64,000 bases of DNA from Anisus vortex. Taxonomy: Eukaryota > Mollusca > Gastropoda > Planorbidae. The notes below the pieces were generated by a model, which made no database searches, was not told the DNA's origin, and saw only the letters and a list, made by a program, of their open reading frames with translations. Positions 949 to 51,169 of this stretch are shown piece by piece (positions within the stretch are counted from its first letter, which is position 1; the number at the start of each line of letters is the position of its first letter). The translations under genes were made by a program, and so were the position numbers. Where the stretch lies: the NCBI GenBank assembly GCA_949126835.1, contig OX421497.1, positions 24,307,612 through 24,371,611 of the forward strand, written 5' to 3'.

Positions 949-1761
949 CTTTTTGTCTTTTACTAGGCGGTGGTGTGCTTGCTTCAGCACCACCTACAAA
1001 GCGCCTTTTTCTAGGCGAGAGCTGGTTCTCTATGAGACTTTTCAGGTGGATGGTTGTTTCATTGTATACCCCGTGAAACAGGACTTCACCTGCTTCGTTT
1101 CTAGAAAGACAAACAACAAAATAATAAAAATACTTCGAAGTCTTTGTATTGTTTTTAATAAAAATTAACACAATTGAAGACAAAGCGTGGTTACCAAGAT
1201 CACTTCAACCCCCACAGAGGATTCACACACTTTTCTCACATCAATTACAGACGTTTCTCCTACCACACACTCTCATTGACATCACAAGAAGAACACATAA
1301 CCAGACAAAGGTATGTCTTGGTATTACTGCTGGACACTAGTAGCAAGTCATCGATAGTAGCACCGGTCGCATTTCCCGCTGATACGCGAAAATAGTATCT
1401 ACTGTACTGGGTGATGGGGTAAAGAAAATAAATAAATAAAAGAACTACGTGACTAAAAACTTTACTTACTTGTCTGGCCTTGCGACATCTGGCATCGATA
1501 ACAATAGGTCACTTATATTTTTAAAGTTTAGTTTCTCAAAATCAAGAGGTTTCCCTATAATGTCTTCATATTCCCCTGTTAAATACAAAATAACAATCAT
1601 AACGATTATCTTGATGTTCTATTATTTAACAATAGATTAATAAAGATTCACTTTTGCTAAAACAAATGAAGATTATATAACTTACTGTAAATATCGTCTA
1701 GCAATACGCCATGTTTTGCACTCAGTAGTAGCGATCGGATCTCCTTACGAAATTCTTCCAT
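949..1761 (-). CDS. LOTUS (OST-HTH) domain protein, TDRD5-like, 5' exons only
   Basis: Three minus-strand exons join in frame: 1761-1686 (ATG, 25 codons plus 1 nt), 1575-1470 and 1100-949. Donors are GTAAGT, GTAAGT and GTGACA; acceptors are AACAG and TTTCTAG. The joined product begins MEEFRKEIRSLLLSAKHG, passes a hydrophobic stretch ending LLLSMPDVARPDK, and closes the domain with GEVLFHGVYNETTIHLKSL. This is a complete N-terminal LOTUS fold of about 85 residues, followed by a basic SPRKRR stretch. LOTUS domains occur in TDRD5, TDRD7, Oskar and MARF1, which act in germ granules and in piRNA or mRNA control; the N-terminal placement and the FRKEIRSLL start resemble TDRD5 most. If the last donor is not used, the frame stops at 923. 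Tudor domains would lie beyond the left edge, so the exact family member is an inference. Confidence 0.8.
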
Positions 1762-2930
1762 TATGAGATTTTATTTCTGGAAATAATTAAAATAGACACC
1801 ACCTCCATTAAATTACAAAGATACTTATATGTTTTATAGGATTTTTATAAAATGAAAGGGTTATACGCATTTTGTTTCTTCTAAATTTTTCTCCCTAACG
1901 CGTCAAATAGTCTGTTGAATTCAACATGGCTATACACTATTCATTTGATATGACTTAACCCTCAGAGAACACCAGATCACCGGTGACTTACCACGTTTAA
2001 TGGAAACCCCATTGTTTAAAAACATACAAATATTAATTAAATACGTGTTTTTATTTTTTACCCTTAAAGCCCAGTGTTCCATCTTTGGAATACAAGGGAA
2101 TTAATTGTGATTTCTAGTTCTTAAAATTAACTAAGTCACTGTCCTAATTGTATATGGCCCCCACCCAGAGCCAGAAAATAATTTGGGCCTCCGTGTAAAT
2201 ATGAAACATCGCTATTTCGATTGATTTGTGTTATTCAGGGCCTCGCATTAAGCAAAGGATATAATCTCTAATTAAGAGAGGTTAATTTATTTTATAAAAA
2301 AAAAAAAGCTAGGCTAAATATCTTAAGGGACGCGTTATGTGCAGAACAAAAGTCTAGTAGTGTAGATTGAACGTCCCCCCATACGCAGATTATTTAAACA
2401 TAATACAGAGTTATGCAATAAACATATCAAAACGCACGAATGTCTGATACATAAGAAAATAAACTTACCTTAATGAAACAAGGAATGTAGAACGACAAAG
2501 TAGAAATGTAGAAGAGGCACTTTCCCGAGTATTTATAAGGGGTAAAACACGTCACATGTAAGATTTTGTTTCGCATTAGGACAACAATGTATTGCGTAAA
2601 GTGATATTATTTTAGCTTGTACGGGTCAGTCCGTCCAGCTAGGTTTGACACGTTAATAATCCCAACACTATCAGTCGAAGACATCTATCAAACACTATGA
2701 CAACTAGGAGGGGGGCGGTCTGTTTTGTTTATTTTATTTCTTTATTTTCATGAGGGAAAAAGTTTATCTATTGCAAAGCCTATCTTTGGGAAGTCTTACC
2801 AAACATTAAAAACCAGTTAACAAAAATTTTGTAGATCGCAAGAAGTTTAGAAAAGTAAGGAAGATGTTTTCATTAGGCGACAAATGTTTAGTCACAAGTG
2901 ACATTCTTCTCTCGTTCGCTCATTCTCTCT
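1762..2930. other. Upstream region of the LOTUS gene, no gene seen
   Basis: This is the 5' flank of the minus-strand LOTUS gene, AT-rich with no credible coding frame. A TATTTATA-like stretch lies near 2530 on the plus strand. Promoter elements for the minus-strand gene could not be assigned. Confidence 0.4.
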
Positions 2931-4045
2931 CTCTCTCCCTCCGAAATTTTCTCACGCCCCTCTCTATAGATAAAACATAAACGTCTGTCTTTTTCAAATA
3001 TCACTCACAGTTATTTCTCACGTCTCTATGTCTTTCTCTCTCCGTTTTCTCCCGATCTCTCTCCCTCCGAACTTTTCTCACGCCCCTCTCTATAGATAAA
3101 ACATAAACGTCTGTCTTTTTCAAATATCACTCACAGTTATTTCTCACGTCTCTATGTCTTTCTCTCTCCGTTTTCTCCCGATCTCTCTCCCTCCGAACTT
3201 TTCTCACGCCCCACTCTATAGATAAAACATAAACGTCTGTCTTTTTCAAATATCACTCACAGTTATTTCTCACGTTGTCTTTTTCAAATTTCACTCACAG
3301 TTATTTCTCACGTCTCTATTCTTTCTCCCTTTCGCTCACTCACTCTCTCTCTCTCTCCCTCCGAACTTTCCTCACACCCCTCTCTATAGACAAACATAAA
3401 CGTCTGTCTTTTTCACATTTCACTCACAGTTTTTTCTCACGTCTCTATGTCTTTCTCTCTCCATTTTCTCCCGATCTCTCTCCCTCCGAACTTTCCTCAC
3501 ACCCATCTCTATAGACAAACATAAACGTCTGTCTTTTTAAAATATCACTCACAGTTATTTCTCACGTCTCTATTCTTTCTCCCTTTCGCTCACTCACTCT
3601 CTCTCTCTCTCCGAACTTTCCTCACACCCATCTCTATAGACAAACATAAACGTCTGTCTTTTTCACATTTCACTCACAGTTATTTCTCACGTCTCTATTC
3701 TTTCTCCCTTTCGCTCACTCACTCTCTCTCTCTCCCTCCGAACTTTCCTCACACCCCTCTTTATAGACAAACATAAACGTCTGTCTTTTTCACATTTCAC
3801 TCACAGTTATTTCTCACGTCTCTATGTCTTTCTCTCTCCATTTTCTCCCGATCTCTCTCCCTCCGAACTTTTTCTCACGTCCCTCTCTATAGATAAAACA
3901 TAAACGTCTGTCTTTTTCAAATATCACTCACAGTTATTTCTCACGTCTCTATGTCTTTCTCTCTCCATTTTCTCCCGATCTCTCTCCCTCCGAACTTTCC
4001 TCACGCCCCTCTCTATAGATAAAACATAAACGTCTGTCTTTTTCA
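2930..4045. repeat. CT-rich satellite, about 126-bp unit
   Basis: About nine tandem copies of a CT-rich unit. The word CCGAA recurs at 2941, 3067 and 3193, giving a 126-bp period. Each unit contains TCTATAGATAAAACATAAA, CGTCTGTCTTTTTCA and ATCACTCACAGTTATTTCTC. Copies differ by point changes (ATAGATAAAACA against ATAGACAAACA) and by small deletions between 3270 and 3720. Frames through the array are repeat artefacts. Confidence 0.93.
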
Positions 4046-5901: not shown

Positions 5902-6426
5902 TTAGTGTTTGGTCTGTTGCCATCCGTCCCATTTGACAGGGGTTGGTATCTTACTCTTCTTACTTCTAGTATGTTTAGCTGGAGGTGATTTGTCTTGGTG
6001 TCGCTTCTTCTTCTTAGATTGACTTTTTGTGTTAGACGAGGTGGGTATTTCGTTGGTGTTTTTATTTGGCGAGTCGGATATTTCGATCGCGTCTTCTGTT
6101 TTAGGTTCGACTGTTATTTTTTGTTCTTGTGTTTCGTCTGTAACCGTTGTTGTATTTGATTGTATTGTTGGGGCTAGGGGTGGTTTCATATCGATTAATC
6201 CTAATGGTTTGTGTCTGTACTCGGCGAGGCGATTCGTATAGAGCTGCAGTGATTGTTGATATTGTTTCACTTTGTCGCGTGGTGACAAGTCTTCTCTGTC
6301 TAGAATATGTTGCATTTGCATATCCAAGGCTCGTAGGCTATCATTAAGTGTATCAGGTGGTACATACGGTTTTTGGTTCATAGACTCTAATAAACGAGGG
6401 TCGATCAAAATCATTTTCTTGGCCAT
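5902..6426 (-). CDS. Lysine-rich protein of a Polinton/adintovirus-type cassette
   Basis: An intact 174-residue intronless frame starting with ATG at 6426. It is the last gene of three on the minus strand, with only 2 nt between it and the gene before. The N-terminal half (about residues 1-70) begins MAKKMILIDPRLLESM and looks mostly helical. The C-terminal half is rich in Thr, Ser, Pro and Lys, with basic clusters such as KKKKRH and TRSKKSK that could bind DNA or act as nuclear signals. I recall similar short proteins beside packaging ATPases in Maverick/Polinton-like elements of marine invertebrates, but I do not know a biochemical function. A virion-core or DNA-associated role is inference from charge and neighbours. 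Confidence 0.65.
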   Translation of the reverse strand: MAKKMILIDPRLLESMNQKPYVPPDTLNDSLRALDMQMQHILDREDLSPRDKVKQYQQSLQLYTNRLAEYRHKPLGLIDMKPPLAPTIQSNTTTVTDETQEQKITVEPKTEDAIEISDSPNKNTNEIPTSSNTKSQSKKKKRHQDKSPPAKHTRSKKSKIPTPVKWDGWQQTKH

Positions 6427-6428
6427 TT

Positions 6429-6752
6429 TTAAAAACCCAAGACGCCTTTAAGAACGTTAATGACAGGTCCCAATAATGCACCGATAAAACCGCCTTGTTG
6501 CAAAATCTGCTTTCGTCTTTTGACCGTCAATTTCTTTTTGGTAAGTTCCCTTAGACTTTCTTTGTGCCGACGCAAACGTCTCTTCTGAGCTGGTGTGAGT
6601 GGAACATTTCCTTTTAAAACATTGTGACAACATTCACATAAAGTTTGCACGAGTTGTGGTGACGCATTTTTTACAACCGCCTTCACGGTGGGCGGGTTAG
6701 CCCGACATAAGAAGCGTAACATTTCACCTTGTCGTTTCACATTTTCAGACAT
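6429..6752 (-). CDS. Small basic protein with hydrophobic tail, Polinton/adintovirus-type
   Basis: A 107-residue intact frame lying 1 nt after the ATPase stop and 2 nt before the next start. The N-terminal half is helical and cysteine-containing (CECCH near residue 40). The middle is very basic (QKRRLRRHKESLRELTKKK). The C-terminus is glycine-rich and hydrophobic (GGFIGALLGPVINVLKGVLG). A basic core followed by a membrane-active-looking tail is the layout of small core or membrane-lytic proteins of adenovirus-like particles and of the equivalent Polinton/adintovirus gene. The assignment rests on layout and neighbours, not on alignment, so the exact role is unproven. The frame is uninterrupted. 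Confidence 0.65.
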   Translation of the reverse strand: MSENVKRQGEMLRFLCRANPPTVKAVVKNASPQLVQTLCECCHNVLKGNVPLTPAQKRRLRRHKESLRELTKKKLTVKRRKQILQQGGFIGALLGPVINVLKGVLGF

Positions 6753-6753
6753 T

Positions 6754-7377
6754 TTATTTGGGGACGTAAACCACTTGGTTTTCGTAAGGAAATACAGAAC
6801 TGCGTAATCTCATATGATCCGGTGTTTCCTGTCGAAGGTCCAGCAACAAATAACCATGAGGGGTCGAGGTTGCGTCTTTAAAACTTTCCTGGACATAGGA
6901 TGCGCGACCGGGGTACATTTGTTTTGCTAAATGAGAAATCTGCGATCGGTCTCTGGGGTTTTTGAACAGCACAAGGTAATGTGAGTTGAGACTGATCGTT
7001 CTTTGTTCTTTGTTTTTTCCGAATAAGTTTTGGACGATATACATAACGCTGATGTCACGGTGGTGACTTCCCTTAGTAAATAATTTAGTGATCCGGTCAT
7101 CGGTTTCAGCCATTAAATCGTCTATTACAACTAGACGTCGACACCTCCTCTCACCTGTCGGCCATTGTTCCATGTCAGGAAGACCTTCTACAAATTGAAC
7201 GCCCTTCATAGTTTCGTATAGTGGCTGCCATTCCCCGTAACACCATATAATTTCCTCTGGGGTGGGGTCGACCATGTCTGGTAGATGTGCCAAAAATTTG
7301 TTTACGAAAACGGTTTTACCGCTACCTGTCGGGCCAGCAATAAGTGCTGTAAAGGGATGTTTCCACCTAGGATCCAT
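6754..7377 (-). CDS. Packaging-type ATPase (FtsK/HerA, A32-like) of a Polinton/adintovirus-type element
   Basis: A 207-residue intact intronless frame with ATG at 7377. Walker A is GPTGSGKT (residues 15-22). Walker B is LVVIDDL with the acidic pair at Asp86-Asp87. A QN pair at 116-117 follows a hydrophobic strand (VMYIVQNLF), the usual sensor position. Size and motif order match the genome-packaging ATPase of Maverick/Polinton elements and adintoviruses, which pumps DNA into a particle. It is the first gene of a tightly packed three-gene minus-strand block, and a GC-rich motif array sits about 200 bp upstream. No polymerase B, integrase, protease or capsid gene is found in the window, so this is a fragment or a reduced derivative. 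A host-domesticated ATPase is the alternative. Confidence 0.8.
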   Translation of the reverse strand: MDPRWKHPFTALIAGPTGSGKTVFVNKFLAHLPDMVDPTPEEIIWCYGEWQPLYETMKGVQFVEGLPDMEQWPTGERRCRRLVVIDDLMAETDDRITKLFTKGSHHRDISVMYIVQNLFGKNKEQRTISLNSHYLVLFKNPRDRSQISHLAKQMYPGRASYVQESFKDATSTPHGYLLLDLRQETPDHMRLRSSVFPYENQVVYVPK

Positions 7378-7438
7378 TGCGATTAATGTTTTGTTTTTGT
7401 TGTGTATTTTTATTTATTTCTCGCTTACACCCCCTGTC

Positions 7439-33072: not shown

Positions 33073-48672
<15,600 letters not shown>

Positions 48673-50330
48673 TTTATTTAACTCATGTTGGATAAAAACA
48701 ATTCTCTACTGCTGTTTAATTAATCACCAGGGACACAAAAAGAGAACTCTTCCCAAATGTTCCAATTTAAATTAAAACTTGTACACATATTGTAAATATT
48801 CTGTTAGCCAGTTTTATTAAAATGATGCTGCCAAATTTCACCTTTGTCTGTTTATACACGATTCTGTCTCTGATGTTGTTATCCAGTGATTCAATTGTAT
48901 GCAAAATATATTATTGCTTTCAATAATGAAATGTCATGGTTAAAATTTCAACTATGCAAACTGTTAAAATTGTTTAAAAAAATGTTTCTGTTTTTACTTG
49001 TTTTTTTTTACAACTTCATATCATAAAAAACAAAAATTTGGCTTGGGCCATCCCACAATTATAATTTCAAATTATACAATCTTTTTGGCCTTCTTTAATG
49101 TCAGTCTTTACATCAGTTTTTTGTGAATTTATAATTAGCTTATTGAATTGTAACATTTTTTCAGACATTTTTTTTAAAGTAATAAAACATAAGATATTGT
49201 AAGTCTGTTAAAGACTATTGCTGTATACACCAATTTCTCGTTTCTTAATACAGTGTATACAAGTGTTCTCTTGTACCAAATACTACACTGAAATTTTGTC
49301 AATTTATGGAGATAATTAAGATTCAATGCAGCAATATTAATGTGACATACTTTTTGATGATATATTATGAAGGTAATTATTTAAAGTGCTCCTGCTTCAA
49401 ACCAAACCTGCTGATAATGTACTGTATAGCAAATATTTTTTGGATGGAATAAAATATTTCTAAATTCATTCAGTAGGTATCTAACCTACAGTCATCCTTA
49501 CTTAATATTATAAATTGTGGGAAAGTTTTGGTGACTTTGTCTACCCACCATATTAAACACCTGCTCAATGTTAAACTTACATAAACACTTATCTACTGCT
49601 GAATTCCATTTTCCACAAATTATAAAGCCACTCAACATTAATTTAATTTATTATATAATAATTTGTTTATGCTCTTTTAAAAGCATTTAAAATTTGTTTT
49701 GTTTATTTATTTATCAGAATATGTACAGATATGTTTATAATTAACATTTTTGTTACATATATTTTTTAGAGCAATTATATTAAGAACAAATGTATACTCT
49801 GCAGGATGTAGGAGTAGCTATGTAAATAATATTATTTACAATGTGGAGAATCATATTGAATTTAAAAAAATACTTTTTGTACCCTATCTGAGCCTACTTA
49901 CTTACAATTGAACACTGCATATTATTCACTAGGATGGTGCAAAGCCTTATGATATTTATTAGATTTAAAAAAATATATTTTAACAGTGTAAAAAATAACA
50001 GTTCTACATTTCTCTACAACATACATCATATATACTATGAACAACATCACCCATTTATTTATCTATAAATATATAGGTGTTTGTATTTGTCTATAAATAT
50101 TATTATGCTGAGATAATAAAATCCCTTTTTTTTAAAATAATTTTTAGAAAATTGTATTTCTTGAAATTTATTAGTAGTATACATGTATTTTGTTAGTTTT
50201 AAAGAATCATTATTAGTGATAGAATGATTCATATTGAACAAGCTACATTGCCCGGGTGAAAAAAAACAGGACTGTATAAGATGCAGATAAAAATTGTATT
50301 AACTACAATAAAAAGAAAGCTAGAATTCTA
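48673..50330. other. ANKRD6 3' UTR and downstream region
   Basis: AT-rich non-coding sequence. AATAAA-type signals occur near 49181 and 49448, and either could be the ANKRD6 polyadenylation site. No other gene is seen. Confidence 0.5.
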
Positions 50331-50332
50331 AT

Positions 50333-51159
50333 TAGGGATGTTAAAACCGGTTTCTTTTCAAAACCGGTTTTCGGTTCTATAAAACCGGTTTCAAAACGGC
50401 TTTTGATTCCCCCCCCCCCCTCCCCCCCAGAGATGGTCTACAGTTATATAGGGATCTTGCAGGAAATGTAAAACAGGTTAGTGACATTAGACTTTGACTC
50501 TGTCCTGTTCATTGGAGTTAATATGCAAAACTGACTGCTATATTTATGTTATTAGGTTTAAACTTTGTGTCATCATGAACTCACAAACTTTACATTTCTA
50601 CAGGGTCCTGTGGCACAGACGCGGTGTCTAGCCGAATTGTTCAAGGTCACAGGACAAAACTAGTTTGCGTCTCTCCAATCTCCATTGCGTACATCAAAGA
50701 GTTGTCGTCGGCATCCGTCCGACTCGAGAGACGATGGTGTAGCTTCATTGGTGAGGTATCCAACTGCACCGCCAAGAATAGCGGTGTAGGCAAACCCGGG
50801 AGGGGCAATCCCTGCCGCACTTGAGGCACATCAAAGAGTAGCGCACATCTAAAAGATGAGCCGACATTTGGTTTGATGTTGTTTTTATCCCAAGCCATAG
50901 TTGGTATTTAGAGAGAAAAAAAAGAAACACAATATCTAAGACTAAATAGTGTTAGCAAGGTATTTCAATAATTGTTTTGCGTGAATCCAACTTTTGTTTT
51001 TAAAAATATTTCCATCAGAACCAATAAAAAAATAAATAAATTGGTGTGCTACTTGAAGTAATGACTACCTTCCAGTCAACAAACCGAAATCCGGTTTTAA
51101 AAATCAAAACCGGTTTTCAGATTCAAAACCGGAATCCGATATTCCGTTTAACATCCCTA
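50333..51159 (+). mobile_element. hAT element carrying a captured ANKRD6 fragment (Pack-type)
   Basis: 827 bp flanked by perfect 8-bp duplications ATTCTAAT (50325-50332 and 51160-51167). Terminal inverted repeats TAGGGATGTTAAA, with many AAAACCGG words at both ends. Inside, 50429-50608 copies 45444-45623 of ANKRD6 (end of exon 10, all of intron 10, first 5 nt of exon 11) without gaps and with 3 mismatches in 180. Both splice sites are retained. A poly(C) tract precedes it, and a GC-richer segment of unknown origin (50609-50900) follows. No transposase frame. Confidence 0.93.
50429..50608 (+). pseudogene. Captured ANKRD6 exon-intron-exon fragment
   Basis: Colinear with 45444-45623 at a constant offset of 4,985 bp. 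The differences are two in the exon 10 part (GGGATC against GAGACC) and one in the intron (TTTACATT against TTTAAATT). It is not a processed copy, because the intron is present. It contains donor CAG|GTTAGT and acceptor TTTCTACAG. Confidence 0.96.
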
Positions 51160-51169
51160 ATTCTAATAT

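Follow-up and report, generated by a model that had tools for sequence, protein, structure and literature searches.

A hAT element in Anisus vortex carrying an exon–intron–exon piece of the neighbouring ANKRD6-like gene, probably captured in place by gap filling

How does a piece of a host gene, complete with an intron, come to lie inside a transposon downstream of that gene? The question is raised by a 64-kb stretch of the genome of the snail Anisus vortex (hereafter the window, the whole stretch of DNA analysed), in which a non-autonomous hAT-type element at 50333–51159 contains 180 bp of an ANKRD6-like gene. Here we report an analysis of the element, of its relatives across the host assembly (863 Mb in 159 contigs) and of the gene from which the piece derives. 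The transposon family, the replaced segment, its unique source, the junctions and the target duplication are all directly observed. We find that they are best read as a Pack-type hAT element, or animal Pack-TIR, present as one copy and formed in place by gap filling, a reading to which we assign a probability of roughly 0.8.

The element has exact limits, as the original prediction from this DNA had proposed. A perfect 8-bp target-site duplication, ATTCTAAT, flanks it on both sides (50325–50332 and 51160–51167), and it is bounded by 13-bp terminal inverted repeats (TIRs): TAGGGATGTTAAA at 50333–50345 on the plus strand and an exact match to it at 51147–51159 on the minus strand. These are the only two exact TAGGGATGTTAAA matches in the whole window, and the same ends are found in sibling copies elsewhere in the genome. 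Repeats of AAAACCGG lie subterminally at both ends, and 10 of the window's 12 near-matches to AAAACCGGTTT fall inside the element. Two features of the hAT group, the 8-bp duplication and short TIRs accompanied by subterminal repeats, are present.

The source gene lies upstream. Coding exons of an ANKRD6-like gene, located by tblastn with three protein hits, are spread over 33076–48669, and the element starts 1,660 bp past the stop codon in the same orientation as the gene. In a protein search, the top matches of a 1,030-aa frame at 45580–48672 are ankyrin-repeat proteins of pulmonate snails (57% identity over 92% for Bulinus truncatus; 53% over 99% for Biomphalaria glabrata), and two lower-ranking matches, from sea slugs, carry the name ankyrin repeat domain-containing protein 6. 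In tblastn, the alignments of three snail ANKRD6-like proteins run up to 45491 and resume at 45616; this break, together with the GT and AG in the sequence, places the intron at 45492–45618. The gene also holds two tandem arrays, one inside its last coding exon (48436–48612) and one of five 51-bp units between two coding exons (44123–44375).

Alignment bears out the gap-free copy described in the original prediction: plus-strand positions 45444–45623 match 50429–50608 over 180 bp, with three mismatches at 45467, 45470 and 45608. The repeat finder reported a longer ungapped span with four mismatches (183 bp; 45441–45623 against 50426–50608) because it also counted three bases of a C tract. The source piece starts with 48 nt of exon, continues through the full 127-bp intron and stops 5 nt into the last coding exon; it is flanked by ANKRD6 coding sequence according to tblastn. 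The copy, on the same strand, keeps this intron complete at 50477–50603 with its GT and AG splice sites, and the retained intron shows that capture took place at the DNA level; both points had been predicted. The two exonic differences between source and copy are synonymous. A search of the 863-Mb genome with the 183-bp piece returned two candidates, both scored, which are the source and the copy, 4.7 kb apart; the claim of a local, unique source thus holds.

With the whole element as query, the best 40 of 3,464 candidates scored were the window copy and 39 others, which match the 3′ part of the element at 93–96% identity and, in 36 of 39 cases, the 5′ end as well. A script found perfect 8-bp target duplications in 34 of these 39 siblings, and rereading added one more (L013) to make 35. 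The other 38, measured by the script at 864–1,002 bp, yield a consensus of 970 bp, from which they diverge by 1.0–2.9%. The 39-bp 5′ end has 1,132 matches in the genome at up to three mismatches, compared with none for the same pattern written backwards as a control. The family is young and has been mobile recently. To these siblings we added a second batch of 40, consisting of 27 further copies among the 48 exact 5′-end matches listed and the first 13 matches with one mismatch; in 36 of them a matching duplication adjoins the 3′ end (at most one mismatch was allowed by the script), and the four left out (L050, L063, L067 and L080) lack a matching 3′ end within the 4.5 kb taken. The complete copies compared number 76: the 38 siblings, the 36 of the second batch, L013 and the window copy.

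Where the window copy has ANKRD6 DNA, the sibling copies have an interior of ordinary element DNA. Among the 76 complete copies, the search of element ends suggested by the original prediction finds the ANKRD6 piece in the window copy only, and unique gene DNA in place of element DNA was likewise found there alone, in a comparison that did not take in an insert of about 225 bp in L077 and matched stretches of about 44 nt in L081 and L086 only in part. Extra DNA in other copies is of different kinds. An insert of about 480 bp in L066 occurs at 39 other places (best 40 of 387 candidates scored) and, taken as a control, entered without loss of element DNA; that of L062 is a duplication of its own interior; and the interior of L069, L083 and L088 is a variant particular to one subfamily. 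In this subfamily, to which L063 also belongs, a different interior of about 225 bp replaces consensus positions 308–669. Internal deletions of at least 20 bp amount to 23 events in 20 of the 76 copies (a count that omits those of L013 and L027), and many show a few shared bases at the joint. Because internal deletions are common, gap repair is active in the family.

An 83-aa open frame on the minus strand of the family core (50647–50898) matched nothing in Pfam, in PDB or in protein databases, where the searches covered proteins of similar length and then longer ones; an older capture within this core, which we had considered, accordingly finds no support. Dimerisation domains of hAT type are abundant in the genome (best 150 of 4,005 candidates scored, all above the cut-off), and no transposase partner with the family's ends was found at the one such locus that we read, L090. 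An intact 891-aa open frame covers the domain match there (1349–4024 of that locus), with no family ends nearby, and possibly belongs to another hAT or to a domesticated gene. Elsewhere in the window, three overlapping open frames occupy the minus strand at 5902–7413. One of them, of 219 aa, contains a P-loop; its Pfam matches to viral packaging ATPases are weak and stay below the cut-offs (Adeno_IVa2, 20 bits against 21; Pox_A32, 20.1 bits against 22.8). Together, we take these frames to be possibly the remnant of a Maverick/Polinton-like element.

Comparison with the consensus reveals that the gene piece replaces ordinary element DNA rather than being a simple insertion. The window copy keeps consensus 1–88 and 418–970, and the 329 bp between them (89–417), 34% of the element, are gone. 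The kept 5′ part (50333–50428, plus strand) carries the AAAACCGG repeats and ends in a poly-C tract of 12 C, a T and 7 C. The lost 329 bp have given way to what remains of this tract (the T and 7 C), then the 180-bp gene piece, then a 4-nt filler, TGTG (50609–50612, plus strand), which is absent from the source and from the consensus at that point; the kept 3′ part follows (50613–51159, plus strand), with a private 7-bp deletion near its end. At the left joint, CCT in the gene corresponds to CCC in the element ahead of a shared AGAG, that is, CC with one mismatch, and the right joint has the filler; there is no clean microhomology at either, which tells against gap filling, a process for which microhomology at a breakpoint is typical without being required. 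The sequence GTCCTGTG, at the filler, recurs in reverse complement within the kept 3′ part. A templated origin of TGTG was tried and rejected as not significant, since random fillers did equally well in 7% of trials against the element alone and in 12% against all targets.

From these observations we infer an order of events, a trigger, a role for the poly-C tract and a repair pathway. A non-autonomous hAT copy of about 970 bp would have been resident 1.7 kb downstream of the ANKRD6-like gene when a gap arose inside it, either through an internal break or because copy-back repair that followed excision was left incomplete. DNA synthesis starting on the left would have stopped in the poly-C tract and switched to the gene as template, 4.7 kb away, copying 180 bp of exon, intron and exon in the same orientation. 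The addition of four nucleotides (TGTG) and rejoining at consensus 418 would then have closed the gap, at the cost of 329 bp. Between the two triggers, the main text of a survey of animal Pack-TIRs (Tan et al. 2021, PMC8277862) gives a median gap of 4.6% of the element and argues for a break inside it; the loss of 34% here may instead indicate excision repair, and we lean slightly towards that trigger given this loss and the recent mobility of the family.

Alternatively, a different hAT copy might have captured the piece, through replication-fork switching for instance, and the resulting Pack element might then have transposed to its present place, the route proposed for multicopy Pack-TIRs. 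Siblings within 1.0–2.9% of the consensus, mostly with perfect target duplications, attest to recent mobility, and a divergence of 3/180 permits a capture as old as the insertion. Against this stand the single Pack copy in the genome and the source only 4.7 kb away, a distance rare by chance for a transposed copy: simple arithmetic puts a random landing within 4.7 kb of the source, in 863 Mb, at about 1 in 90,000. In the main text of PMC8277862, moreover, multicopy Pack-TIRs are found in distal places only. We consider transposition of a finished element distinctly unlikely. Filling in place fits better because there is a single copy, the source is close and element DNA was lost, and the case for it rests on distance and copy number. 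An artefactual join of gene and element in the assembly, from which the locus was judged, is very improbable, as the copy differs from its source at three positions, carries private element changes of its own (7/622) and sits between the family's ends within a matching target duplication. A last rival holds that the 180 bp are not gene DNA but a repeat found widely in the genome, a refuting outcome named in the original prediction, or else a transposon nested in the element. It can be dismissed almost entirely: nested repeats do exist in the family, as in L066, but the piece occurs at two places in the genome, its exon part encodes residues conserved in ANKRD6-like proteins of other snails, and 329 bp of element are absent at the joint.

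Divergence says less about the timing of the capture. The window copy has private changes at 7 of 622 aligned bases (1.1%; the sibling median is 1.05%), or at 4 of 604 outside a cluster near the 5′ end. Had the capture been as old as the insertion, 2.4–4.0 differences between source and copy would be expected, and three are observed. The original description of the capture as recent therefore stands in a loose sense only, and divergence does not establish that the capture postdates the insertion. A first dating, which used all 12 differences from the consensus in 622 bases and so predicted 6.9 changes for the captured piece (P = 0.085), had leaned towards capture after insertion; it was withdrawn because several of the 12 differences are common to other copies.

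The cluster lies just ahead of the poly-C tract, where four changes fall within 18 bp (P about 8 × 10−5 against the rate elsewhere in the element, a post hoc value). They occupy element bases 60, 64, 68 and 72 (within 50333–50407 of the window) and thus follow one another at intervals of exactly four bases. None of the 38 siblings has C60 or C68, whereas one of the four changes is common to four of the 38 and one to a single sibling; in sibling L041, three positions of this 18-bp stretch depart from the majority base. Error-prone repair is a suggested cause, and slippage between the AAAACCGG repeats is an alternative for the four-base spacing; we have no explanation beyond these two. The tract itself differs in length among copies, and C tracts interrupted by T occur in siblings too. 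Deletions start at it in three other copies, L013 (77 to 378), L088 (73 to 132) and L067 (76 to 110), and a post hoc test of the tract as a hotspot gives P of about 0.01 for 4 of 48 ends, with 24 deletions assumed. It is thus conceivable, though rather doubtful, that the poly-C/poly-G tract is a fragile site or polymerase trap, which repeatedly starts internal deletions in this recently mobile snail hAT family and, in the window copy, started an error-prone capture of a piece of the neighbouring gene, with clustered changes by the junction. If so, the family would allow gene capture by a DNA transposon to be followed in natural populations.

Plant Pack-MULEs and Pack-TYPE elements are mobilised after capture and are often multicopy; the snail element differs in that it exists once and most probably arose where it now lies. 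Pack-MULEs are Mutator-type, with target duplications mostly of 9 bp, and the 8-bp duplications and short hAT-like ends set the snail element apart from them. It shares with plant Pack elements, as described in the part of PMC8903248 drawn on here, the build of a non-autonomous DNA transposon with a gene piece taken up as DNA. The likeness to Pack-MULEs in the original prediction is therefore a loose one: uptake of the piece as DNA stands, and the single copy, the near source and the lost element DNA are better explained by filling in place than by capture and later spread. The Ds elements of maize that carry gene pieces, as presented in the part of PMC3260210 used here, also belong to the hAT superfamily, measure about 1 kb and contain filler DNA, and Ds2-22 carries two exons with the intervening intron. 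Unlike the snail element, with its source 4.7 kb away, they are plant elements, and the two donor genes drawn there are on other chromosomes.

The closest counterparts are animal Pack-TIRs, and the original statement that such captures are poorly documented in animals does not hold. For 100 animal genomes (81 vertebrates and 19 invertebrates), the main text of PMC8277862 gives a count of 370 Pack-TIRs, 208 of them in hAT elements and four multicopy. Under the definition given there, a fragment of more than 100 bp lies between the two ends of one TIR element and has an unambiguous parental copy of similar length that is free of transposons for 100 bp around, with intronless copies of multi-exon genes filtered out; in the snail, 180 bp lie between consensus 1–88 and 418–970, with one ungapped, intron-containing source. 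The nearby source in cis expected of gap filling is also found, 4.7 kb away on the same strand. In that survey the source is within 15 kb in 160 of 281 unique cases, most of those within 5 kb; the unfilled element is present in an outgroup for 91 of 97 primate cases; and one example, ERP44, comprises a coding exon and part of its introns. The snail element is like these Pack-TIRs in being a hAT TIR element with a host fragment between its ends, an intron kept, a single copy and a close source. It is unlike them in its snail host, in the share of element lost (34%, where the survey median is 4.6%), in its filler and in the lack of clean microhomology, and its family is young (1.0–2.9% from the consensus, compared with a median of 18.3% for the surveyed copies). 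A literature search for Pack-TIR gene capture in animal hAT elements returned no match, further searches listed no snail case as judged by title or opening of the abstract, and the main text of PMC8277862, taken without its species list, mentions neither a snail nor an oyster, a sea hare or Lottia.

Gap-filling capture is thus a kind of event already known in animals, and a source as close as this one is typical. The Anisus vortex case offers above-average resolution, with the source, unfilled siblings and exact junctions all at hand in a recently mobile family, and the order of insertion and capture becomes testable through populations and sister species. For the gene itself, a copied intron that lies downstream in the same orientation, with its two splice sites intact, could alter transcripts at the 3′ end of the gene or lead gene prediction astray.
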